A stretch of DNA of 33,561 nt, from positions 1 through 33,561 of the forward strand of contig JAICMG010000016.1 of the NCBI GenBank assembly GCA_025929365.1. The letters are read 5' to 3'. Positions 4,419-18,144 of the stretch are shown one piece after another; position 1 is the stretch's first letter; each line of letters begins with the position of its first letter. The DNA comes from Frankiaceae bacterium. GTDB lineage: Bacteria > Actinomycetota > Actinomycetes > JAFAQI01. The notes under the pieces were generated by a model. That model saw nothing but the letters and a program-made list of their open reading frames with translations. It did not search any database and was not told the origin of the DNA. A program made the translations under genes and the position numbers.

Positions 4419-4464
<46 letters not shown>

Positions 4465-4570
4465 TGGCTTCCCACGGGTGTCCCGGTGTCCGCCGAGGTC
4501 CGGGATTCCTTGCTATTCCTAGGATTCTGTCCATCCACGTCCACCGCCTTCCGTCAAAACTCGCCCCGGA

Positions 4571-4592
4571 TGTGCCTCAGTATGTGCCTCAG
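4571..4592 (+). promoter_or_regulatory. Candidate integrase arm-type site, left end
   Basis: tgtgcctcagtatgtgcctcag; 18/22 identical to 17994-18015 at the other end. Confidence 0.5.
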
Positions 4593-4605
4593 CCAGCCGG
4601 GCGGC

Positions 4606-5343
4606 TCACTGCTTGAACCAGACGTGCGGCACAAGCTGATCGTGCCACTCTTCTCCCGCGTCGAGCCAGGTTGTCGCCCGCAACTCGGAGCTCAGCGCAT
4701 GCAGGACGTCGGCTTCCGGCGGCTCGAGCTCGTCGAGCTGGTTCAGGACCACAAGCAGATTCCAAAGAAACACGGTCAGCAAGAGCGCTAGTCGCTCGGC
4801 CTTGTCCTGATCGAACGACCCAGAACCAATCGCAGCAAGCATCTGTCCTTCGGCCGCCGTCGGCCGCTGAAAGGCCAGCGTCCATTGGATCAAATCCGGC
4901 GAGCAATGCGAGTAGGGCTGCAGCGCACGAGCCATCGACGTCATGTGTTGCGACCAACTGATTCCCCAGGGCGTATCCGGAAGCGACGGCCACAGGTCGA
5001 GGGCGAGACGACGACGAAGGTCGCCCTGCCGCAGCGTGTCTGCAGTCCATGCGCCCAGCAGTTCACTCGCCGTCTCCGAAGGCAATAGCCCTATCTCGAT
5101 CACACTGCTTGCCTCCAGGCACTGTCGGGCCATACTCAGCGCCACCGAGTGCCGGCCGGCCTCATTCGCGGCCAAGCCAGATTCTCGACTGGCGGCGAAG
5201 TGCGAAGCCGCCAGCATTGGAAGGAAGCGGAGGTCGTCGGGAAGATCAACCCGCCGAGCGCTTTGTACGCGGTCGAGTGCTCGATAGGCGAGCGTGCCGT
5301 ACGCCGCGGGCACATGCTGCCAACGATCGTCCGGGCGCGGCAC
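4606..5343 (-). CDS. Uncharacterised, mostly helical protein encoded directly downstream of hsdM
   Basis: GTG start 5 nt after the hsdM stop; 245 codons; alpha-helical composition; no motif I can assign with confidence. Confidence 0.75.
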   Translation of the reverse strand: MPRPDDRWQHVPAAYGTLAYRALDRVQSARRVDLPDDLRFLPMLAASHFAASRESGLAANEAGRHSVALSMARQCLEASSVIEIGLLPSETASELLGAWTADTLRQGDLRRRLALDLWPSLPDTPWGISWSQHMTSMARALQPYSHCSPDLIQWTLAFQRPTAAEGQMLAAIGSGSFDQDKAERLALLLTVFLWNLLVVLNQLDELEPPEADVLHALSSELRATTWLDAGEEWHDQLVPHVWFKQ

Positions 5344-5348
5344 AGTGA

Positions 5349-6848
5349 TCAGTCCGATTCGTGGCCGAGCGTCGTTCCCGCCGTCGTCTCAAGGGCCGAC
5401 GCGACAGCCTCGAACTCGGCGAGTGCGGCGGTGAGGTCTTCGACGATCTCGCGGGCTATGACCTCCGGCGCCGGAAGGTTGTCGAGGTCTTCAAGAGACT
5501 CGTCGCGGAGCCAGGTGATGTCGAGGTTCACCTTGTCTCGCGCGATCAACTCGTCATAGGCGAAGGAGCGGAACCGCTCGGACTCGACTCGCTCGGACCG
5601 CGACAGCCCCGAGAGGTAGCACTCCACAAATTCGTCGAGGTGGGCTCGGCGTAGCGGATTCTGCTTCAGCGTGAAGTGCTGATTCGTACGCAGGTCGTAC
5701 ACCCACAACCGCTCGGTCCACGGCCGCTCACTAGCCGGCTTCTTGTCGAAGAACAACACGTTTGCCTTCACGCCCTGCGCGTAGAAGATCCCGGTCGGCA
5801 GGCGCAGCAGTGTGTGCACGTCGAAGTCGTTGAGAAGCCGACGGCGCAGCGTCTCCCCCACGCCGCCCTCGAAAAGCACGTTGTCCGGCACAACGACGGC
5901 GGCACGGCCGTTGATGTCGAGGATCGTCGCGATGTGCTGGACGAAGTTCAGCTGCTTGTTTGCCGTCGTCACCACGAAGTCAGGCCGTTCGATCTCCCGG
6001 TCCTCGCGTGCCTCGCGACCATCAGCACCGACCATCGTGATCGAGGACTTACGGCCGAAGGGTGGATTCGACAGAACGACGGACCAACGGTCGCCGGGGT
6101 CAGCGAGCAGCGAGTCCTTGACCTCAATCAGACTGTCGCCATCCGGTCGGCCGATGCCATGCAGCAAGAGATTCATCGCCGCCAGTCGCGCCGTGCCGTC
6201 GACCAGTTCAACGCCGTGGACGAATCCGTCACGGAGATGGTTGCGCTGGTCCGGCGTCAGACTCTCCGCGTCGCGGGCTGCATGCTCGTGCGCAACCAGC
6301 AGGAAGCCGCCGGTACCGGCCGCCGGGTCGACTACCTTGTCCTTCGCAGACGGGTCGACGCAATCGACGACCGCTTCGATCAGCGCACGCGGCGTGAAGT
6401 ACTGACCGGCCCCGGACTTGATGTCCTCGGCGCCCTTGCTGAGCAGTTCCTCGTATGCATCGCCCTTGATGTCGACGCCGGCCGCCGACCAGTTCTCCTT
6501 GTCGATCAGGTCGACGATCAGCCGCTTGAGCTTGGCCGGGTCCTGGACCCGGTTCTGCGCCTTGCGGAAGACCACGCCGAGCGTCCCGGGCTGGCGAGCG
6601 AGTTGCTCGAGGATGTGCCGGTACGTCGTCTCGAGCTCGTCTCCGTCGGCATCGAGCAACCTCTGCCACGAGCACTCCGCCGGGACGATTCGCTCCGGCT
6701 TGAGCGGACGGGTCTCCCGCTCATGCGCCATCTTTAGAAAGAGCAGGAAAGTCAATTGCTCGGTGTACTCGATGGTCGAGACGCCGTCGTCTCGCAGCAC
6801 GTTGCAGTACGACCACAACTTGTCGACCAAGCGTCGCGCGTCAGACAC
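5349..6848 (-). CDS. hsdM: Type I restriction-modification system, N6-adenine methyltransferase subunit M
   Basis: Motifs 'GQYFTPRALIEAVVDCVDPSAKDKVVDPAAGTGGFLL' and 'NPPFGRKSS' (NPPF); likely GTG start at 6848 overlapping the hsdS stop (an upstream ATG at 6869 is possible). Confidence 0.95.
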   Translation of the reverse strand: MSDARRLVDKLWSYCNVLRDDGVSTIEYTEQLTFLLFLKMAHERETRPLKPERIVPAECSWQRLLDADGDELETTYRHILEQLARQPGTLGVVFRKAQNRVQDPAKLKRLIVDLIDKENWSAAGVDIKGDAYEELLSKGAEDIKSGAGQYFTPRALIEAVVDCVDPSAKDKVVDPAAGTGGFLLVAHEHAARDAESLTPDQRNHLRDGFVHGVELVDGTARLAAMNLLLHGIGRPDGDSLIEVKDSLLADPGDRWSVVLSNPPFGRKSSITMVGADGREAREDREIERPDFVVTTANKQLNFVQHIATILDINGRAAVVVPDNVLFEGGVGETLRRRLLNDFDVHTLLRLPTGIFYAQGVKANVLFFDKKPASERPWTERLWVYDLRTNQHFTLKQNPLRRAHLDEFVECYLSGLSRSERVESERFRSFAYDELIARDKVNLDITWLRDESLEDLDNLPAPEVIAREIVEDLTAALAEFEAVASALETTAGTTLGHESD

Positions 6849-8169
6849 CAGCCAGCTCCACCGGCTCATCGAGCTCACTTGCCATGCCCGTAAGTCCGCC
6901 ACCGAATGCTGCGGCCAGCAGGCTTCGCCTCAACGCGTCACCACGTTTGCTTGCGGCCTCCACCTGCGCGCGCAGCTGCAGACCGCTGTCCGACAGGGAG
7001 CTGAGCCGATCAACGATTCTCGGCTGTTCTGCGAGCGGCGGCACAGGAATGGGCATCAGCTTGATCTTCGAGAGGCTGATCGAAGCCAGGTTGACGCTCT
7101 GCCGACCGTTCCTCTCACACCATCGCCCACCGATTGAGTTCGCAGCCCAGGACAGGAGATACGGATCGATCGAGCCGTCACGCACTCGCGCACGAAATAC
7201 GTGGTTCTGATGGATGCAGTTGTCGACTTGCCCCTCCCACACCCAGCCGCGACCGAGCTTGTCCCGGTCGCCACCCTCGTTCAATAGGACGTCACCAGCG
7301 ACGAGTTGCAGTTTCGACGCGGTCGGTTCGGGCACGCGGATCGTCGTCACGGTGCCGAGGTTGAGGAAGCCTCGTTGCACGTTCGCGACGCGCAGGTACG
7401 GCCTTTCGACGAACGACGGGTCCGACTGCCTAGAAGCATCTTTGGTTACGCCACCAACGACGTCCGCGAGGTCGCCTAGCCTCGTCCACCCCCAGCCTGT
7501 GGGGAGTCGTGCCAGCGCGCCGTCATCGACGCCTTCGTCTGCGAGCCCTGGATGCGCGCGTCGCTCTCCGGCGATCCCCGCGCCCGTCAGCTGACCCTCG
7601 AGAACGCTCTGCCAAAGAGATGACCATCGGGATGCGGCCGTCCGGAGCAAAGTCGCGGCAGCATCGAGGCGGGAGAGGTGATCTTCGAGGATCTCGACGA
7701 TGCGCCGCTGCGTCTCCGCCGGCGCGACGGGAACGGGTAGCGCGTTAAGGCCGCGAACATTGATCTTCGGCAGCACCGTGCGGGCTTGCTCTCCAGCCGC
7801 TAGTCGCGTGAACTCCCGGGTGAGCATCCACCACTTCAGATATCTGGGCTCAAGATCCGTATCGATCGGGTATATGTCTGCGCTGCACAGACCGTCGAAC
7901 TCCGCAACGATGACCTTGGCTAGATAGGGGCGAATCTTCGAATAGAGCACCTGCCCGGCGCGGAAGCCGTGTTTGGCGCTGGTCACACCGTCCGCCGCAA
8001 CCGTCGAGTACGGCAGGAGACGACCTGTCTCCGACTCGATGTGGTTCGGTGCGATGTGCGGCAAGTCTGGATACTGCGTTGGCCCGACCAGGTTGCTGGC
8101 GACCTTTGCGACCTCATCGAAGCGAGCCCAGCGCCAAAGTGGCGGGAGAGACCACGGCTCGGCAGTCAC
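6841..8169 (-). CDS. hsdS: Type I restriction-modification system, specificity subunit S
   Basis: Two half-repeats, each with a target-recognition domain and a conserved helix ('PAETQRRIVEILEDHLSRLDAAATLL' and 'PLAEQPRIVDRLSSLSDSGLQLRAQVEA'); GTG start overlaps the hsdR stop. Confidence 0.93.
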   Translation of the reverse strand: MTAEPWSLPPLWRWARFDEVAKVASNLVGPTQYPDLPHIAPNHIESETGRLLPYSTVAADGVTSAKHGFRAGQVLYSKIRPYLAKVIVAEFDGLCSADIYPIDTDLEPRYLKWWMLTREFTRLAAGEQARTVLPKINVRGLNALPVPVAPAETQRRIVEILEDHLSRLDAAATLLRTAASRWSSLWQSVLEGQLTGAGIAGERRAHPGLADEGVDDGALARLPTGWGWTRLGDLADVVGGVTKDASRQSDPSFVERPYLRVANVQRGFLNLGTVTTIRVPEPTASKLQLVAGDVLLNEGGDRDKLGRGWVWEGQVDNCIHQNHVFRARVRDGSIDPYLLSWAANSIGGRWCERNGRQSVNLASISLSKIKLMPIPVPPLAEQPRIVDRLSSLSDSGLQLRAQVEAASKRGDALRRSLLAAAFGGGLTGMASELDEPVELAGV

Positions 8170-10940
8170 GCTGTCAGCGCCACGTTGAGGCGCTCGAGGT
8201 AGTTCGCCGCCTCGTTCCCTAGATCCCGGATGGCACCGTCGACCCCGCCCCGCTCGACAAATGGCGCGTTGTCGAGGTCATCCGCACTGACGGCCGCCGA
8301 CGTCGCAATCACATCGGCGATCTTGTCGAGCCACCAGCGTTCGCGGTCGTTAAAGGTCACGCCGGCCTGCTCCTGCTGCGCGAGCCAGGTCGCATAGCGC
8401 TCGCGAACCTTGTCGGCGTACGGGACGAGTTCGTCATCGCTACCGAGTGTGAATCGGACCAGTGACACCAGGTCGGTAACTGTGTGGCGGTCCGCATGGC
8501 GGACTCGATCGACCTCGATCGCCTCGTAGGCGCTCCAGATCAGGTCGGGTGTCCAGTTGTACGGCGGGCGCTTGATCCGCTCGGCGAGTTCACGCAGCTC
8601 GTCGAAGGAGACCCGGCCGGGCTGCGGCTGCTCGTAAAGCACGTGGAGCGCGGTGATCTCGTCACGGTGCTCGTCCAGGTACGTGCGCCAAGACTCGACC
8701 ACCGACCGCGCACGTTCGGCGTCGACGACGCCGTGTGCGTTGAGAAGGACATCGACGCTGACTTCGTCAATCACCTGGTCGTGGGTGGCGCGCAGGTCGA
8801 GAATGCGCTGCCGCAGCACGGGGTTCGAGGCGACTGGGCGAACGGCGTCGTCGATCAGCCGCTGCCGCACAACGTCAGAGTCTTCGCCTGGCGCGGCCGC
8901 GGCGGCACTGGCTTGCTCATCGGGATCGACCGCGGCGACGAGTCGCCGTACGACGTCCTTGAGCGGCTCGCCGGCGACACCGTCCAGCTCCTCGCGCTCG
9001 GCGGTGCTCAGCTGCAGTTCGAGTTTCGCGAGCCGAGAGGCGAGCGTTGCAGTCTCGTCCTCCGTAAGAGTGAGGGCGGCGGCCTTGTCGAGCAGCTTCT
9101 TCAACGAGACGGACTTGGCGCGTTCCAGCGGCGCAGCGTCGACGTAGTCGTGCTCGGTGACGCCGATCGCGTCGACCAGTACGAATCGCGTCTTGGTTTC
9201 CGCGTCCGGGGTGACGGCCTGGAAGTCCGACGGCGAGATGGTGCGGGCGCCGCGGCCCTTCATCTGCTCGAAGTACGACGCGGACTGCACGTCGCGTAGG
9301 AAGAAGACACACTCCAGCGGTTTGACGTCGGTGCCTGTCGCGATCATGTCGACGGTGACCGCGATCCGCAGCGTCGGTGAGGTGCGGAACTCCTGCAGCA
9401 GTTGCTTCGGGTCGCGGCGTGAGTTGTAGGTGATCTTGGCGGCGAAGTCGTTGCCCTTGCCGAACACCTCGCGGGCGAGCGTCACGACCTGCTCGGCGTG
9501 GTTGTCGTCCTTGCAGAAGATCAGCGTCTTGGGGACGGTCGAGCGACCCGGGAAGATCTCGGTGTACAGCCGGTCGCGGAACGTTTCGAGGACCAGGCGG
9601 ATCTGCTCGATCGAGGTGACCGCGCGGTCGAGTTGGGTCGCGCTGTAGGTGAGGTCGTCCTCGAGCGTCTCGTACCGCTCGACCCGGGTACGCCGGTCGC
9701 GGACCGGGACGACCGTGCCGGCGTCGACGGTCGAGCCCTGCTCGGTGATCTGGGTCTTGATCCGGTAGACGTCGAAGTCGACGTTGACGTTGTCGGCGAC
9801 CGACTGCGGATAGGTGTATTCGGAGACGAGGTTCTGCCGGAAGAAGCCGAACGTCTGTTTCACCGGGGTCGCGGTGAGCCCGACGATGTGGGCGTCGAAG
9901 TATTCGAGTACGCCGCGCCAGACTCCGTAGATCGAGCGGTGCGCCTCGTCCACGATCACCAGGTCGAACGCCTCAGGTGGCATCTGCGGGTTGTAGGCGA
10001 CCTCGACCGGGCGCTCCGGCGTATAGGTGTCGAGGTTCGGGTCGTCGGCGTCGGCAACCTGCTCGCCGCGCAGCGCGGCATAAACGCGCTGGATGGTCGA
10101 AATGACGACGTGCGAGGAGTCGACCATGCCGGCCCCGGTGAGCTTGTCGGCGTTGTAGAGCTCGGTGAACCGCCGGCCGTCGTCAGGGGTCGCATAGTTC
10201 TGGAACTCGCGCAGCGTCTGATCGCCCAGGTTGTTGCGGTCGACGAGGAACAGCACGCGTCGGAACCCGGCGTGCTTGAGCAGCCGGTAGGACTCGGTGA
10301 CGGCGGTGTAGGTCTTGCCGGCGCCGGTCGCCATCTGCACGAGCGATCGGTCGCAGCGCTGCTCGGCGAGGCTGCGCTCGATTCCGAGCACGGCCTCGAT
10401 CTGCGCCGGCCGCAGGCCCTCGGTGTGCAGGTCAGGCATGTGCGCGACCTTGGCACGCCAGGTTGGGACGTCGGGCTTGTCGTCGGCGTCGCGCATGATT
10501 CGGGCGAGGGTCTCCGGGCGCGGGACGTTGAAGATCCGCCGGGCGCGCGGTGCCGGGTCGAAACCATTCGTGAAGTGCGTCTCCGAGCCGGAGGCCTCGA
10601 AGATGAACGGCAAGCGCCCGTCCGTGGTGAGCGCCTTGAGCTGAACCTCGGCAGGCAGGCCCTCGGCGTACATCGCGGACTGCCACTCGACGCCCGACAG
10701 CGTGGTGCCCTCGGGCTTGGCCTCGATCGCGCCAACCGTCCGCTGGTCAACGTAGAGCAGGTAGTCGGCGCGGCCGTGACCGGCAGCCATGATGACCTCA
10801 CGGACCGCGACGCCCTGGCTTGCGAACAAGTTCAGTCCGGACCGGTCCTGCACCGACCAGCCGGCGTCGGTCAGCTGGCGGTCGATGAGCACGCGAGCGC
10901 GCTGCTCGGCGGTCAGCTGTCCCCCGTCCACAGCCCGCAA
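8166..10940 (-). CDS. hsdR: Type I restriction endonuclease subunit R (EcoEI-like DEAD/DEAH helicase-nuclease)
   Basis: PD-(D/E)xK-like 'RADYLLYVDQRTVGAIEAKPEG'; Walker A 'MATGAGKTYTAV'; 'DEAHRS'; C-terminal EcoEI-type helical region. Start TTG 10940 or GTG 10931. Confidence 0.95.
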   Translation of the reverse strand: MRAVDGGQLTAEQRARVLIDRQLTDAGWSVQDRSGLNLFASQGVAVREVIMAAGHGRADYLLYVDQRTVGAIEAKPEGTTLSGVEWQSAMYAEGLPAEVQLKALTTDGRLPFIFEASGSETHFTNGFDPAPRARRIFNVPRPETLARIMRDADDKPDVPTWRAKVAHMPDLHTEGLRPAQIEAVLGIERSLAEQRCDRSLVQMATGAGKTYTAVTESYRLLKHAGFRRVLFLVDRNNLGDQTLREFQNYATPDDGRRFTELYNADKLTGAGMVDSSHVVISTIQRVYAALRGEQVADADDPNLDTYTPERPVEVAYNPQMPPEAFDLVIVDEAHRSIYGVWRGVLEYFDAHIVGLTATPVKQTFGFFRQNLVSEYTYPQSVADNVNVDFDVYRIKTQITEQGSTVDAGTVVPVRDRRTRVERYETLEDDLTYSATQLDRAVTSIEQIRLVLETFRDRLYTEIFPGRSTVPKTLIFCKDDNHAEQVVTLAREVFGKGNDFAAKITYNSRRDPKQLLQEFRTSPTLRIAVTVDMIATGTDVKPLECVFFLRDVQSASYFEQMKGRGARTISPSDFQAVTPDAETKTRFVLVDAIGVTEHDYVDAAPLERAKSVSLKKLLDKAAALTLTEDETATLASRLAKLELQLSTAEREELDGVAGEPLKDVVRRLVAAVDPDEQASAAAAAPGEDSDVVRQRLIDDAVRPVASNPVLRQRILDLRATHDQVIDEVSVDVLLNAHGVVDAERARSVVESWRTYLDEHRDEITALHVLYEQPQPGRVSFDELRELAERIKRPPYNWTPDLIWSAYEAIEVDRVRHADRHTVTDLVSLVRFTLGSDDELVPYADKVRERYATWLAQQEQAGVTFNDRERWWLDKIADVIATSAAVSADDLDNAPFVERGGVDGAIRDLGNEAANYLERLNVALTA

Positions 10941-10972
10941 TCTACCGAGATCGGAGCCGGTGATCCGGGCGC

Positions 10973-11947
10973 TCAGCCATGCCGGCCACCCCGAGCCACC
11001 GAGCCATCAGCCGCCGCGATCCATTCGTTCACTGCCGCAACAGCGTCGGCCATTGAGAGCTCGACGTCGGCGGAGGTGGCGGCACGCTGGAAGTCGTCGG
11101 ACCAGTGCAGATGACCGTCCACGGTTGGCGGCCACGATCGCGAGGGCAGGCCGAGTTGTTGCGCCTCGTGCGCGCGCGCTTCGAACAGTGCGATACCGGC
11201 CGCGCGGATCTCGGCGAGAGTCGGCCTGCCCGTGGCCGCCGCCAGGTCACGGAGCAGCAGGAGGTCGACGACATCGCGGGCGCGGTCGTTGATCGCAGCC
11301 GGCGGGTCATGTGGATCGGACACCGCGTGCAGCTTCTGCGCGATTTGGAAGCGCATCGCGATCCCGACGAGTGTCGCAGGATCCGGCAGCCCGAAACCAC
11401 TGAGCGGCGGCGGTTCGATCGCCTCGAAGTCGCTGCCGATTCCGGCCTCGTCGGCCGATACCTCGAACTGGATGCGTCGCCACGTGACACCGCGTAGCTC
11501 CAGGATGATGTCGAATCGCCGCGGCTTCACGATCTTGGTCGGGGTGTTGATGACCTCGACTTCACCGCGACGCAAGGTTAGCGGTCCCCATGGTTCGGCG
11601 AGCGCGTTCTCGAGCGCGACGAAGAACGTGTCGAGATCACCGCGGATCAGACCGTCTACATCCTTGGTCGTGCGGGCGGTCGAGTTCAGCCGATGTTGAA
11701 GCAGCGTTCCGCCCTTGAGCAGGAAGAGGTGCCGCCCTTCGGCGTCGATCGCCCGCTGCACCGCGGCGATCGCCACCGACGATGCGACCAGCCAGCCGAG
11801 TCGTCCGCCCCGCGCTTCGTCGCCGAGCTTGCCTTCGGCTTGGGCGATCCACGTTTCGAGGACTCGTGTCGAGTGCGGTTGCTTGGTTTTCGGCGCGAGC
11901 GTGCGGAGCAACGCCGCGAGCCGCGAGCCGATGTGTTCAGTCGCCAC
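10973..11947 (-). CDS. abiEii: AbiEii-type nucleotidyltransferase toxin
   Basis: 'FLLKGGTLLQHRLNSTARTTKDVDGLI' nucleotidyltransferase motif; 'AQKLHAVSDPHDPPAAINDRARDVVDLLLL'; GTG start at 11947 overlaps the upstream abiEi stop at 11937. Confidence 0.9.
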   Translation of the reverse strand: MATEHIGSRLAALLRTLAPKTKQPHSTRVLETWIAQAEGKLGDEARGGRLGWLVASSVAIAAVQRAIDAEGRHLFLLKGGTLLQHRLNSTARTTKDVDGLIRGDLDTFFVALENALAEPWGPLTLRRGEVEVINTPTKIVKPRRFDIILELRGVTWRRIQFEVSADEAGIGSDFEAIEPPPLSGFGLPDPATLVGIAMRFQIAQKLHAVSDPHDPPAAINDRARDVVDLLLLRDLAAATGRPTLAEIRAAGIALFEARAHEAQQLGLPSRSWPPTVDGHLHWSDDFQRAATSADVELSMADAVAAVNEWIAAADGSVARGGRHG

Positions 11948-12506
11948 GGCGTACCGCCAGAGCTTGCGCGAGGGCGTCTTGTTCAGCGGTCTTGAGGTAG
12001 CCCTGGGCGTGTCCGCGTTCGATCGCCTGACGCAGCAGATAGGTCGGCGTGCCGTAACCGATGCACTGCTCGATCGCCGTGCGCGCGGTGACGATGGGGA
12101 CCTCCTGCCACCAGCCGACATCCGCCGGGGCGAGGTCCTCGTAGTGGATGACGTACGCCTCTCCCCCGGCGCGGCGCAGCCGGCGCTCTTTGCCGACCGT
12201 GACGTGGATCCGGTTCGGATTGACGTCGCTGATGCCGTAGGCGTCCAGGGCGGTCTCATGGCTCAGGCACGCCTCTGGGGCGCGGGTCCACAACACCGCC
12301 AGCATGTAAGGGTCGTACTGGCTGGCCGGGTACTTCGGGAAGCGGTACACGCCGAACCCCGCGCGCTCTACGGTTCCGCGATGTACCAGCATCTGCAGCG
12401 CGGTCTTGTGAATGCCGAGGTCTGCGGCCTGCTGGGCCGTGACGAAGCCGTGCTGGGCGGCAGCGACCTCCCACAGCTCATCCCGGCCCAACACCTTTCC
12501 GGTCAT
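11937..12506 (-). CDS. abiEi: AbiEi-type antitoxin / transcriptional regulator
   Basis: N-terminal winged helix 'LWEVAAAQHGFVTAQQAADLGIHKTALQMLVHRGTVERAGFGVYRFPKYP'; overlapping start of the AbiEii gene. Confidence 0.9.
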   Translation of the reverse strand: MTGKVLGRDELWEVAAAQHGFVTAQQAADLGIHKTALQMLVHRGTVERAGFGVYRFPKYPASQYDPYMLAVLWTRAPEACLSHETALDAYGISDVNPNRIHVTVGKERRLRRAGGEAYVIHYEDLAPADVGWWQEVPIVTARTAIEQCIGYGTPTYLLRQAIERGHAQGYLKTAEQDALAQALAVRRGD

Positions 12507-12540
12507 GGCAAAAGTATAACGGAACCGTGATACTTCTGCC
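12507..12540. promoter_or_regulatory. 34-bp imperfect palindrome overlapping the abiEi promoter (candidate AbiEi operator)
   Basis: ggcaaaagtat-aacggaaccgtg-atacttctgcc; outer arms 10/11 complementary, with inner ACGG-aa-CCGT; contains a TATACT -10-like hexamer (minus strand) 6 nt before the ATG. Confidence 0.6.
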
Positions 12541-12546
12541 AGACAC

Positions 12547-13167
12547 TCACCGCAAGATCTCGAGGCCGCTACGCAGCGCCGGCAGGGCCTTCGGGAAGTG
12601 CTCGGCCATCTGCATCAGCTGGGCCGGTGAGGAGCCCGGACGCCGCAGCCATCGCTTGAGCGCCTCGTACGCGATGTCCGTGCCCTCGCGGTGCCGCAGC
12701 CGGAACGCATCGATGATCGAGCGCTCCGCTCCGTACAGGCCGATCTGCTCCGTCGCGGTCAGCCGCAGTGATTCGCGGCCGATCTCGAACGTCGCAGGAT
12801 CGAACGCATGCCATCTGACCGGCGCGGCGGTGGGTGGTCGGCGCGTCCCACGTGGGATCGCGATGTCGATGCGACTGGGGATCGCATCAGTGAGGTCGTG
12901 TTTGACGAGCGCGCTGGTCAGACACAGGGTGGCTCTGGGCGCGCGCGCGGCGATCTCGATGAGGTCAGGGTCGGCGCCCGGCTCGATATCCGTGGATCGG
13001 TACGTGCCCTGGGCAAGCGGCTCGATCAATCCGTGGTCGCGAAGCCAGTAGATGCGGCGGTTACTGAGACCTGCCTGCCGCGCCTGTCCGTAGGAGAAGA
13101 TCGGAGGCAGAGTCGTCAACGCGAGGCGCGCGGCGTCCTCGCGAGTCAGCTCGCTGGTGGTTGCCAT
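12547..13167 (-). CDS. Second AbiEi-family antitoxin-like protein with no adjacent dedicated toxin
   Basis: ATG 13167 with GGAGGTGG RBS; winged helix 'PIFSYGQARQAGLSNRRIYWLRDHGLIEPLAQGTYRSTD'; 'CLTSALVKHDLTDAIPSRIDIAIPRGTRRP' as in AbiEi-like proteins. Confidence 0.85.
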   Translation of the reverse strand: MATTSELTREDAARLALTTLPPIFSYGQARQAGLSNRRIYWLRDHGLIEPLAQGTYRSTDIEPGADPDLIEIAARAPRATLCLTSALVKHDLTDAIPSRIDIAIPRGTRRPPTAAPVRWHAFDPATFEIGRESLRLTATEQIGLYGAERSIIDAFRLRHREGTDIAYEALKRWLRRPGSSPAQLMQMAEHFPKALPALRSGLEILR

Positions 13168-13178
13168 CTTCCACCTCC

Positions 13179-13225
13179 GGATAGAAGTGTAGACACATAT
13201 GGCCGATGTGTAAACAGTTCTATCC
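13179..13225. promoter_or_regulatory. 47-bp inverted repeat covering a sigma70-type promoter for the second AbiEi-like gene
   Basis: Arms ggatagaagtgtagacacat / atgtgtaaacagttctatcc, 17/20 complementary, 7-nt spacer; minus-strand TTTACA (13209-13214), 17-nt spacer, TACACT (13186-13191). Confidence 0.7.
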
Positions 13226-13302
13226 GCTATCGAATTGGATACCTCCCTATCGGATCCCATAACGACGTACGGGCGGGCAGATTCAACGCCGATAAGCCAG
13301 TC

Positions 13303-14145
13303 GTGAAGCGTCTCGCTCTCCGACGACCGGACACCTGCGCATCGTGCGCCACGGATCTGGCGGTCGGCGCCTGGGCGTACTGGGACGCGACCACTCGCGT
13401 CGTCACGTGCACCGCGTGCGTGGACGGCGCTCCGACGGCGCCGCGCGCGCTCGACGTCCTGCCTGCGCCCGTGGTGGCGCCCGCTCCGTCTGCCGGCGCG
13501 TCCGCCCAGCGGGAGTTCGAGCGCCGGGTGCAGCGCCGCGACGAGACTGTCCGTGCGGCGCACCCCAAGCTCGGCGGGCTGCTGCTCGCGCTGTTCAACG
13601 AGCCGGCCAGCACCCGCGTTTGGGCACAGGGCGCGAGCGGTGAACGTGCCATCGCCGCGAAACTCGCCGAGCTCGAGGGCGAGCACGTCACCGCGCTGCA
13701 CGACCGGTCGATGGTGGACGCCAACGGACGCCGGACGCGGGCGAACATCGACCACATCGCCGTCGCCGCAACCGGGGTGTGGGTGATCGACGCCAAGACC
13801 CACCGAGGTGCCCTGCAGGTGCGCCGCTCCGGCGGCCTGTTCGCACCCCGGGTCGAGAAGCTGTTCATCGCCGGCCGTGACAAGACCTCGCTCCTCGAGG
13901 GGCTTGCTCGTCAGGTCGAGTCCGTCTCCTCGCATCTCGCGTCGGTGAGCGCGGCAGTCCCCGTCCGCGGGGCGCTCTGCTTCGTCGGGACGGAGTTGCC
14001 GTGGTTTGGCGAGTCGATCCGCGGCGTACCGCTCGTCGGCCGGCGGGGGTTGGCGAAGCTGCTCAAGCAGCCGGGCGAGTTCGGCAGGGATGACCGGGAG
14101 GCACTCGCGACCTTCCTCGCCACCCGGTTCCCGAGCGCCGTCTGA
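13303..14145 (+). CDS. NERD (nuclease-related) domain protein with N-terminal zinc-ribbon-like CxxC pairs
   Basis: GTG start; 'TCASCATDL...VVTCTACVDG' cysteine pairs; 'GEHVTALHDRSMVDANGRRTRANIDHIAVAATGVWVIDAKTHRG' matches the NERD core. Confidence 0.83.
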   Translation: MKRLALRRPDTCASCATDLAVGAWAYWDATTRVVTCTACVDGAPTAPRALDVLPAPVVAPAPSAGASAQREFERRVQRRDETVRAAHPKLGGLLLALFNEPASTRVWAQGASGERAIAAKLAELEGEHVTALHDRSMVDANGRRTRANIDHIAVAATGVWVIDAKTHRGALQVRRSGGLFAPRVEKLFIAGRDKTSLLEGLARQVESVSSHLASVSAAVPVRGALCFVGTELPWFGESIRGVPLVGRRGLAKLLKQPGEFGRDDREALATFLATRFPSAV

Positions 14146-14362
14146 GGCCCCGGCGCAAGCCCTCGGATCGGTAGATCTAACTGTGTGCGTCCCGTTGATC
14201 GTGGGTGTGGCGAGCGGTCCGGAGGCTCGACGCCAACGTCCGGGGGGTGGCCCCGGTGAGCCGGGACAGCGAGCGTTCCGGCACTCTCGTCGCAGCAACC
14301 AACCAGGGCACGCACACACTTGTCTCTTACGAGATCTGCCGACCGACTTTGGCCGTCCCACG

Positions 14363-14385
14363 GCTCGGGGGACGCTCGGGGGGAC
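14363..14385. repeat. Short head-to-tail tandem repeat upstream of the excisionase-like gene
   Basis: gctcgggggac immediately followed by gctcggggggac. Confidence 0.5.
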
Positions 14386-14436
14386 ACCAGCGCGCACGGT
14401 AGCCACCGTCAAGCCACGAGGCAGGAGGCCGCGCGA

Positions 14437-14706
14437 ATGTCCGTCACGACGATTCCGCTGTTCGACGATCCGCCGCCGGCGCGGCGACCGCGGCCGCTCC
14501 CCCAACGGGACCGCACCGCGGGCGAGCCGGAAACGCTGCTCACGGCGGCCGAGGCAGCCGCCGTACTCAGGATCGGTCGCAGCAAGCTTTACGAGCTGAT
14601 GGCCCGCGGCGCTATCCACTCGGTGAAGCTCGGGCGATGCCGCCGGTTCCGGCGCTCCGATCTTGACCGGTTCATCCGGACGCTGAAGGCAGAGCCCGCC
14701 AGCTGA
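14437..14706 (+). CDS. Excisionase-like helix-turn-helix (MerR/BldC-like) DNA-binding protein
   Basis: 'LLTAAEAAAVLRIGRSKLYELMARGAIHSVKLGRCRRFRRSDLDRFI'; strong RBS gcaggagg; directly upstream of the integrase. Confidence 0.88.
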   Translation: MSVTTIPLFDDPPPARRPRPLPQRDRTAGEPETLLTAAEAAAVLRIGRSKLYELMARGAIHSVKLGRCRRFRRSDLDRFIRTLKAEPAS

Positions 14707-14788
14707 GCGACGCTGACTTGTCCCCAGCTTGCGGACTACCGCTTCGTCGTACGCCGGTGTCGTCGGACCCTCGCGGTAGAGGTGACTG

Positions 14789-15964
14789 ATGCCGAAGAAG
14801 CGCGGACAGGGCGAAGGCTCGCTGTACTACTCCGAGCCGCGCCAGCGATGGGTCGCCGTTCTCGACCTCGGCCGCGGGCCGGATGGGGTCCGCCGTCGGG
14901 TGAAGATGTCCGGCAAGACGCGCGCCGAGGTACGACGCAAGCTCGAGGAGGCGCAGAAGGCGGCCACCGCCGGACTCACCTGGGACGACCAGCGCACGAC
15001 GGTCGCCGAGTTCTGCGCGTACTGGCTGAAGTACGGCATCCCCGCCGCGGTGCAGTCACCGAACTCACTATCGAACATCGAGTGGGCGGTCAACCGCCAC
15101 ATCGTGCCGCGGATCGGTCACCGTCGGCTACGCGAGCTGACCGCCGACGACGTCGACAAGCTGATGCGCGACATGGCGAGCACCGGCTACAGCAAGTACT
15201 CGATGGTCCGCGTCCATGGCGAGCTGGCGCGCATCCTGCGGTTCGCCGAACGCCGCGGCAAGGTGATGCGCAACGTCGCGACCCTCGTCGACGTCCCGGC
15301 CGGACCGAAGAAGCGAGGCCGGTCTCTCACCGTCGCCCAGGCGAAGGCGCTGCTCGAAGCCGCCGGGGGCGACCGACTCGAGGCGCTGTACGTGACGGGC
15401 CTGCTGATGGGTCTGCGGCCGGGAGAGCTGCTCGGACTGTCGTGGACGAACGTGGACCTCGACGATGGCCGGCTTCGGGTCTCTCAGTCGCTCAAGCGTG
15501 AGCACAACACGCTCGTGGTCGGGGAGCCCAAGACGCTGCGGTCACGTCGAACGCTCGACATGCCTGACCTTGCGATCGATGCGCTCAAGCGGCATCGCGA
15601 TCAGCAGGAGAACGAGCGGACCGACGCTGGCGACACCTGGATCGACACCGGCCTCGTCTTCACGACCACACTCGGTACGCCGATCGACCCGTCGAACCTC
15701 CGGCGCGAGTTCGACAAGCTGACACGGAAGGCTGGCATCGGCCACTGGCATCCGCATGAACTGCGGCATTCGGCGGCGTCTCTGCTGTCAGCGGCCGGCG
15801 TACCGCTCGAGCAGATCTCCGACGTCCTCGGCCACGAGGGACCTCGAACCACTGCCGCCGTCTACCGCCACCTCGTCAACCCGTCAGTCACCGCCGGCAA
15901 GGCGCCAATGGACGCTCTATTCACAGCGTCAGCCGAAGATGGGCCGCCCTCGCTAGGCAGTTGA
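14789..15964 (+). CDS. int: Tyrosine site-specific recombinase (integrase)
   Basis: N-terminal arm-binding and SAM-like core-binding regions; catalytic R 'GLRPGELLGL', 'HPHELRHS' (HxxR), 'LGHEG', and Tyr in 'AAVYRH'. Appears intact. Confidence 0.95.
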   Translation: MPKKRGQGEGSLYYSEPRQRWVAVLDLGRGPDGVRRRVKMSGKTRAEVRRKLEEAQKAATAGLTWDDQRTTVAEFCAYWLKYGIPAAVQSPNSLSNIEWAVNRHIVPRIGHRRLRELTADDVDKLMRDMASTGYSKYSMVRVHGELARILRFAERRGKVMRNVATLVDVPAGPKKRGRSLTVAQAKALLEAAGGDRLEALYVTGLLMGLRPGELLGLSWTNVDLDDGRLRVSQSLKREHNTLVVGEPKTLRSRRTLDMPDLAIDALKRHRDQQENERTDAGDTWIDTGLVFTTTLGTPIDPSNLRREFDKLTRKAGIGHWHPHELRHSAASLLSAAGVPLEQISDVLGHEGPRTTAAVYRHLVNPSVTAGKAPMDALFTASAEDGPPSLGS

Positions 15965-16014
15965 CCCGCCGTGCCGTTCGAAGTGCTGGCTGCACACCTC
16001 ATACTCCGCTACCC

Positions 16015-16269
16015 CTACGTAGCGCCGTCACAGCTTCCCGGGAGCGTTCTGGGAGGCTGGCCGAAGGCGTCGCAGAATGCCTGGAAATCGGCGGCGACGG
16101 GAAAGTGGTCGACGGCCTGATGCTCCTGCCGTAGTGCGTGCACCTGCGGCCAACCGCCCGTTAGGAACATCGTGAATGCGGGCAGGCCCTGGTCACCGCT
16201 AACAGTGAAGGATCCGTCTTCCTGTCCGCGGATTACGAGCCGCCCCTCGACGGGGTGCGCCAACGTCAC
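16015..16269 (-). CDS. Small hypothetical protein coupled to the TIR gene
   Basis: GTG 16269 (or TTG 16263 with GAGGAGG RBS) starts about 5 nt after the TIR-gene stop at 16275; product VTLAHPVEGRLVIRGQEDGSFTVSGDQGLPAFTMFLTGGWPQVH.... Confidence 0.6.
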   Translation of the reverse strand: MTLAHPVEGRLVIRGQEDGSFTVSGDQGLPAFTMFLTGGWPQVHALRQEHQAVDHFPVAADFQAFCDAFGQPPRTLPGSCDGAT

Positions 16270-16274
16270 CTCCT

Positions 16275-17189
16275 CTAAGCACGTTCTACTTGGTCCACGA
16301 TCTTGTCCCACAGAACTTCGAAGAAGCCTTCGTTCGACATTCGCCCGCGGCCATCACTCCCGAAGTTGGCCATATCGCTCACCTCGATCAGGCTCTCACC
16401 GGACTCCTTGTCGTAGGTAGGGCTGGCCCAGCCGTTCCAACTGTTGGATTGACTCCTATAGCCGACGCTCCAAGTGAGGTGGTCGTCTCCCATGTGCCGG
16501 CCCTTACTCACATCTAGCCCGGCCACGGTCTGCCCAGCACGCTCAACGCGGATGTTGATCTGATCTGTGGACGTACGCACTGTGCACGGGATCTGTTGGG
16601 CCCGCATTTGTTCGGCGGCTTCGCGGAAACGCTGCGCGAGGTAGTCGAAGCTGACCTCCAACTGTTCGTACCTGCTCCAGGTGGCTGGGACGATCATCGG
16701 TAGCCGAACGGCCAAGGCACGCTCGACGACGTCGCCAACCGGCTGCATCGGCTGACCCGAAGCCGTTGCCTGTCGCACCCTTGCTTCGATTTCGGCTGCT
16801 AACTGCTCGGGGGTGTAGTCCCTCGCGCGCAAATAGTGGATGTGCGGATGGAGCAGCTCGGGCGGGACAGCAACATCGTCCATGAGCACAGGCAGGATGT
16901 ACCCGTCGCCCTGATGCACTGCCGTCATCATCGCCGACGAGAACTCATCCATCGGAATCGGCTTGGCTATGTACTCGTGCGACAGGAAGGGGACGAAGTA
17001 GCGTGTCTGCGAGCTGTAAACAGACCGTTGCTGCCGGATGAAGTTGCCACCCCACCACTCGTTATTCTTGTCGCGGTCGTAGAAGACCCGGAGACCGCGC
17101 TCCTGGCAGGCGCGCACGGTCGCCTCCACGTAGTCACGGTGTTCTCCCGCGAACGAAACCGCTATGTCGTACGGCAAAGACTCAGACAC
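16275..17189 (-). CDS. TIR-domain protein with unassigned C-terminal domain
   Basis: 'YDIAVSFAGEHRDYVEATVRACQERGLRVFYDRDKNNEWWGGNFI' and 'RYFVPFLSHEYIAKPIPMDEFSSAMMTAV...YILPVLMDD' match the bacterial TIR fold pattern; ~140-aa C-terminal region not recognised. Confidence 0.88.
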   Translation of the reverse strand: MSESLPYDIAVSFAGEHRDYVEATVRACQERGLRVFYDRDKNNEWWGGNFIRQQRSVYSSQTRYFVPFLSHEYIAKPIPMDEFSSAMMTAVHQGDGYILPVLMDDVAVPPELLHPHIHYLRARDYTPEQLAAEIEARVRQATASGQPMQPVGDVVERALAVRLPMIVPATWSRYEQLEVSFDYLAQRFREAAEQMRAQQIPCTVRTSTDQINIRVERAGQTVAGLDVSKGRHMGDDHLTWSVGYRSQSNSWNGWASPTYDKESGESLIEVSDMANFGSDGRGRMSNEGFFEVLWDKIVDQVERA

Positions 17190-17267
17190 GCAAGTCCCCA
17201 GACTCTTGGACAGAGAGCCCGCCCCGCCATCAGTACGGGTTAGCAGGGCGGGCTTCCCGCTACACCG

Positions 17268-17576
17268 TCAGCATTCGACGACGACAGCTCCGATGCTCAT
17301 CCAACGGCCCCAGCCACGCCGGACCGCGTCAATCACCAAGCGCGTCAGGTCTGCGCCGGTAAGGCCGGCGCTGCACTCGCAACCCGTGAGCGTGCCGCCT
17401 CCATCGACGCCGCCGCCACCCGGAGAGCACCGGAGCTTCTCCGGTACCTCGCGGTCGACACGAACACAGAACGTCCGCTCACGGCCGTGGCGGCACGTCA
17501 GCCGGGCGTTCACCCAAACGTGTGGTCCCACGACCACCACCTCCTCTCCGAGCATGTCCGCCGGAGGGAAGGTCAC
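17268..17576 (-). CDS. Hypothetical Cys-containing small protein
   Basis: 102-codon ORF with CRHGRERTFCVRV and CSPGGGG...CEC; same strand as the TIR gene; coding status moderate. Confidence 0.5.
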   Translation of the reverse strand: MTFPPADMLGEEVVVVGPHVWVNARLTCRHGRERTFCVRVDREVPEKLRCSPGGGGVDGGGTLTGCECSAGLTGADLTRLVIDAVRRGWGRWMSIGAVVVEC

Positions 17577-17993
17577 CCAATGACGTACGTCAGGGCTTGC
17601 TTCGGTTAAGGTCCATCACGCATCCCACATGCAGATGAGCCCCGTTCCAACGGCAAGCACCAGCGCGTCGTCGGGCCGGGGCTCGTTGCTCTCTATCGGT
17701 CTAACACACGGCGCCGACGGAAGCCGGCGCGTCGACCGGCGTGTCGGAACTCCGATTCGCCGAGCGATTGCGATAACAGTCCAACCCCGCGAAAGGGTCG
17801 CTTGTTGACCCCACAAGCTCGTCTGGCAGGTCTCGACAGCGGCAGCTCGCCTGCTGACCTCGCTCGCGCCGAACGCGCGGCAGTACCGGATATGTGCGGT
17901 CCCGTTGCGGTCGCCGAGCGATGCGTTCGACCTGCCCTGCTGTCGACACAGACCCGAATGCACGTGCCCGTGTAGGACCTCCTGGGCCACGGG

Positions 17994-18015
17994 TGTGCCC
18001 CAGTATGTGTCCCGG
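17994..18015 (+). promoter_or_regulatory. Candidate integrase arm-type site, right end
   Basis: tgtgccccagtatgtgtcccgg; 18/22 identical to 4571-4592. Confidence 0.5.
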
Positions 18016-18069
18016 TCCGGCACAAGATCACCAGCGACAGCGCCGCAACGCTCTGACCTGCGGAAACTC

Positions 18070-18144
<75 letters not shown>

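Follow-up and report, generated by a model that had tools for sequence, protein, structure and literature searches.

Bacterial TIR proteins that resemble the one described here are known from several defense and model systems. SpbK is a solitary TIR protein encoded on the integrative element ICEBs1; its activator is the phage portal protein YonE, and the active protein depletes NAD+ (PMC8880864, PMC11984713). In Thoeris, the proteins ThsB1 and ThsB2 recognize capsid proteins, which shows that the sensing can be done by a TIR protein itself (PMC12578639). In AbTir, the catalytic glutamate is E208 (PMC11374754).

How does a TIR gene from a Frankiaceae bacterium compare with these? The gene lies in a stretch of 33,561 nucleotides, the whole of the DNA that was analyzed and referred to below as the window. 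It encodes a TIR domain followed by a second conserved domain, and it stands close to the right end of an integrated island (Table 1).

Table 1. Positions of the TIR unit and of the island features around it, numbered along the window
Feature	Position	Strand	Remarks
TIR protein gene	16275..17189	minus	304 aa, GTG start, TAG stop
TIR domain, residues ~9-126	16812..17165	minus	TIR_2; PDB TIR matches by profile and by fold
E82 codon	16944-16946	minus	
C-terminal domain, residues 160-304 (start ~160)	16278..16712	minus	PDLC00420 family; predicted helix / 7 strands / helix
Shine-Dalgarno sequence AGGAGGTGA, perfect 9 nt	16266..16274	minus	directly after the TIR stop codon
Small ORF	16015..16263	minus	82 aa from TTG 16263; 84 aa from GTG (16015-16269)
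Tyrosine-type integrase	14789..15964	plus	PF00589 1.1e-24; phrog_1 8.2e-70; convergent with the TIR unit
Left attachment repeat	4421..4464	plus	44 bp, identical to the tRNA-Ala 3' end
Right attachment repeat	18070..18113	plus	inside tRNA-Ala(GGC), 18070-18144, minus strand

The TIR domain and its candidate catalytic glutamate

A first-pass annotation of the sequence read the N terminus of the protein as a bacterial TIR domain of the SFAGE type, and this has held up well. TIR_2 (PF13676) scores 47.1 bits over residues 9-126 (cut-off, 28) and is the sole Pfam match of the 304-aa protein; the SFAGE and WG positions are conserved among homologues in the alignment. AlphaFold2 models the full-length protein with a pLDDT of 77.8, and the fold matches of this model are TIR domains, including that of AbTir (7uxu) with a TMt of 0.77. 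The model also returned SPARTA TIR-APAZ proteins; across the whole span their rmsd was close to 25, and these matches were taken as TIR-only. An NCBIfam match to SCO5555 (E 0.029) lies under the cut-off and was ascribed to chance. Within 15900-17700, no sigma-70 promoter or intrinsic terminator patterns were found, these patterns being uninformative for this host.

The glutamate of the stretch PMDEFSSAMM, which had been put forward as the catalytic residue, is E82 of the TIR protein. It is unchanged in nine homologues, and when the protein is aligned by profile with TIR domains of solved structure, it falls opposite the glutamate of WTNYE in AbTir, which becomes E208 when residues are counted along the AbTir construct. 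By alignment, E82 is a conserved candidate catalytic glutamate at the position of AbTir E208.

Is the domain an active one? A complete WxxxE is usual in NADase TIRs, and membership in TIR_2 does not require it. The motif is incomplete here, reading I78-P-M-D-E82 with the tryptophan replaced by I78. The tryptophan is missing in the actinobacterial subclade, the three homologues nearest to the window protein having I, V, or Y at this position. The loss of this residue, shared by close relatives, could mean that the TIR domain has little or no catalytic activity, leaving a protein that acts as an adaptor through TIR-TIR contacts or a gene that is merely decaying cargo. We consider this very unlikely, as the reading frame is intact, E82 and the SFAGE and WG positions are conserved, and the tryptophan is not essential in every TIR protein: the W204A change in AbTir is inhibitory, while the equivalent change in TcpC has no effect (PMC11374754).

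The C-terminal domain and the ThsB label

The suggestion that a separate domain occupies residues ~165-304 was also sound; an independent domain extends to residue 304, past the "LIEV" that the first-pass annotation quoted. Modeled alone with AlphaFold2, it gives a confident structure (pLDDT 88.3, pTM 0.83) with a predicted topology of a long helix, seven strands, and a closing helix. A Foldseek search of the PDB with this model returned no chain at an E value of 0.001 (the best was 0.28) and a profile search of PDB sequences nothing convincing. Calycin- and START-type PDB matches were scattered, with TM values of about 0.2-0.35, and were not used as an assignment. No Pfam model was found for the domain.

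To what, then, is it related? The PADLOC model PDLC00420, which is named ThsB, matches residues 130-304 with an E value of 6.8e-7. A profile of 10 other TIR proteins, mostly plasmid-borne, finds the domain at 34.8 bits, and a C-terminal-only profile, from which the window protein and its close set had been left out, finds it at 38.9 bits. When the two sets of C-terminal domains were compared profile to profile with hhalign, the probability was 97.3% and the E value 1.7e-11. These profile comparisons put it in one family with the C-terminal domain of the PDLC00420 TIR proteins. Because it matches an existing PADLOC model, it is not wholly undescribed, but it carries no assigned function. We know of no activity or phage phenotype for any protein that carries this domain.

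A genome_contigs search with the single TIR protein sequence found nothing, and homologues came to light once SFAGE TIRs were aligned and used as the query. Full-length homologues in other phyla share 26-50% identity with the window protein. The combination of an SFAGE TIR with this C-terminal domain occurs in Nocardiopsis (49%), Amycolatopsis (48%), and Verrucosispora (38%), as well as in Eisenbacteria, Omnitrophota, Planctomycetota, and one unplaced bacterium. On plasmids, the domain is joined to a different TIR type, and almost all of its plasmid matches that have gene annotation are TIR proteins. Every protein read that carries the domain has a TIR domain too, and the order, TIR first, is the same in the homologues and in the PDLC00420 proteins. 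A Planctomycetota protein (L052) bridges both groups, since its TIR is of the SFAGE type and its C-terminal domain of the plasmid-group type. A TIR domain with an extra conserved domain is confirmed, and the pairing extends to a cross-phylum family. The domain was found in 8 of the 80 best SFAGE-TIR loci, and it is rare in the phylum, with 3 of 397 genomes carrying it, this one included. None was found in phages or viral contigs, and 11 genomes of the same genus or family lack the TIR gene. The two parts are separable units, because an Actinophytocola protein (L028) pairs a 60%-identical TIR with a different C terminus that has a P-loop-like stretch.

Does the ThsB label mean that the protein works as part of Thoeris? 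It would then act as a cyclase like ThsB, and the cyclic ADP-ribose it produced would signal to an unlinked effector. This would accord with the PDLC00420 match over the C-terminal part of the protein and with the sensing of phage capsids by ThsB1 and ThsB2, which are TIR proteins (PMC12578639). However, the island (4421-18113) holds no ThsA-like gene, a SIR2_2 search of the genome, which is 92% complete, found nothing, and an annotated ThsA neighbor is lacking in all eight plasmid relatives that are annotated (0/8). The control search for SIR2_2 was positive in two genomes; a STALD search of the same genome also gave no match, but its control was silent. Thoeris needs a ThsA-type effector. 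With none in the island, the locus does not make up a Thoeris system, and signaling of the Thoeris type is unlikely here, although a genome 92% complete may have a distant or type II effector.

The downstream reading frame and the island

What of the small ORF that follows the TIR gene? An ORF of ~84 aa starting some 5 nt past the TIR stop had been pointed out, and it is there if translation begins at GTG 16269. TTG 16263, which stands 5 nt behind AGGAGG and gives 82 aa, is the more likely start, so that the distance from the TIR stop is 5-11 nt depending on the codon chosen. The Shine-Dalgarno sequence AGGAGGTGA occurs once in the whole window, against 0.15 copies expected, and since a perfect and unique copy precedes the small ORF, the latter is probably translated. 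Its GC1/GC2/GC3 values (0.72/0.49/0.75) are coding-like, and its codon log-odds are weak at -0.07 per codon. The length of the frame carries no weight, because 39% of the start codons in this GC-rich window open frames of at least 82 codons.

The ORF was originally proposed to form a two-gene defense module with the TIR gene, in which the small protein, translationally coupled to a TIR toxin, serves as its regulator or immunity protein. The junction itself, with its single Shine-Dalgarno sequence, its short spacing, and the coding-like composition of what follows, is as one would expect of such a module. Apart from the weak codon log-odds, though, searches of plasmids, phages, viral contigs, the fetched loci, and 397 genomes of the phylum turned up no relative of the small protein (P0002), and no family was found for it among the Pfam, NCBIfam, PADLOC, and PHROG models. 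Nor is the pair conserved, for the ORF is absent downstream of every full-length homologue. In the three closest of these (L026, L027, and L029; gene calls from a simple GC-frame script), a convergent gene lies no more than about 45 nt from the TIR gene, which leaves no room for a partner, and the upstream genes are divergent. There is no conserved partner in these three loci, and since their TIR genes stand alone, the TIR protein evidently exists without the small one. We therefore regard the module as quite improbable; going by these sequence comparisons, the small ORF is probably translated but an orphan local passenger rather than a conserved partner.

In L087, the small protein had a match 4 kb away from that locus's TIR gene; its E value of 0.003 came from a tiny database, and it was dismissed as chance. 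Two loci have a different ORF, a 47-aa zinc-ribbon, on the 3' side of the TIR gene (L030, 1543-3390; L032, 1746-1889); in L030, the next gene encodes a reverse transcriptase.

The TIR gene is cargo of an integrative defense island at tRNA-Ala. The island measures 13.65 kb and is bounded by identical 44-bp tRNA-Ala repeats. Besides the TIR unit and the integrase, it carries HsdM, HsdS, and HsdR-like genes (type I restriction-modification [RM]), AbiEii/AbiEi, a NERD protein, and a helix-turn-helix excisionase-like (Xis-like) gene. In relatives, the tRNA-Ala is conserved together with the genes on its right; the left flank was not found beside the tRNA in the relatives searched, and no clean empty site was found. 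Repeats, integrase, and cargo nevertheless identify an integrated defense island. The AbiEi/AbiEii pair at 10973-12506 is complete, and adjoining it is a second AbiEi-like antitoxin without an AbiEii of its own (12547-13160, minus strand; AbiEi_4, 32.9 bits). Beside HsdM lies a gene for a 245-aa protein with no Pfam match (4606-5343, minus strand).

In a genome of the same family (L129; G403:C93:800-10300), copies of the same attachment repeat lie about 7 kb apart, with a type I RM system and an MNT/HEPN-like pair between them, named by eye from the translations. From these repeats, tRNA-Ala looks like a recurrent site for defense islands. Defense genes are also found in the loci of the TIR homologues, namely, more TIR genes, reverse transcriptase, HsdS, AlbA/Schlafen, and a phospholipase-D anti-phage protein. 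On a Microvirga plasmid (L018, 2515-4456), the gene immediately after one for a reverse transcriptase encodes a TIR protein with this C-terminal domain, and the two are possibly an RT-TIR defense pair or a retron. The Verrucosispora locus (L029, 1053-5879) has three TIR genes together, one of which encodes a TIR-AAA-TPR protein of 908 aa.

Proposed function and comparison with known systems

What might a TIR protein of this kind do? Because its tail domain is common to TIR proteins of many phyla, it is probably a self-contained phage alarm. We think it reasonably likely that it is a single-gene, SpbK-like abortive-infection (anti-phage) protein carried by the tRNA-Ala island. In such a protein, the C-terminal domain would most likely sense infection by binding a phage product and/or drive oligomerization. 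Once triggered, the TIR domains would assemble and, using E82, either hydrolyze NAD+ or form a cyclic ADP-ribose product, and this NAD+ chemistry would stop the infected cell. The role of sensor is drawn by analogy, as the C-terminal domain has no confident PDB relative. The loss of the WxxxE tryptophan in the actinobacterial subclade also speaks against this reading.

A broader and more doubtful speculation takes the C-terminal domain for a sensor of infection with an undescribed fold, which recombination has joined to two or more TIR subtypes and which has spread across phyla. If so, a large set of solitary TIRs now filed as "ThsB" or "TIR domain protein" would make up one new, ThsA-independent, one-gene defense family.

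Why does this matter? A single cross-phylum domain, with no Pfam entry and no PDB relative, marks a group of TIR proteins that a defense database files under Thoeris, and yet the loci read with this domain lack the Thoeris effector. Were the domain indeed the sensor, the consequences would be 2-fold. (i) It would be the part to swap or mutate in order to learn which phage product is detected. (ii) Some Thoeris counts may include solitary TIRs.

Placed beside the known systems, the window protein shares something with each of them. The PDLC00420 "ThsB" group (for example, the TIR proteins of Nitrosococcus oceani and P. aeruginosa plasmids; L015-L022 and L007) has a C-terminal domain of the same family, at about 20% identity, the same order of TIR first and C-terminal domain second, and likewise no conserved partner in the loci read; its TIR is of another subtype, whereas that of the window protein is of the SFAGE type. 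Thoeris ThsB is also a defense TIR protein and goes by the same PADLOC model name (PMC7272460, PMC12578639), but Thoeris has a ThsA-type effector, which is neither in the window island nor found in the genome. The retron-associated model Retron_TIR_antiphage (NF042941) has a related TIR sequence over residues 6-105, with a score of 36 against a cut-off of 600, while in the window no reverse transcriptase is fused to or adjacent to the TIR gene. AbTir (PDB 7uxu/8g83) has the same TIR fold and catalytic glutamate position; it retains the tryptophan of WxxxE, which the window protein lacks, and the accessory domain of the latter is C-terminal to the TIR. Finally, SpbK, whose activity has been demonstrated, whereas that of the window protein is predicted, has its TIR at the C terminus rather than the N terminus. 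It is the nearest working analogue, and the window protein would work as it does. In each case, a solitary TIR_2 gene on an integrative element encodes a TIR together with a separate domain.
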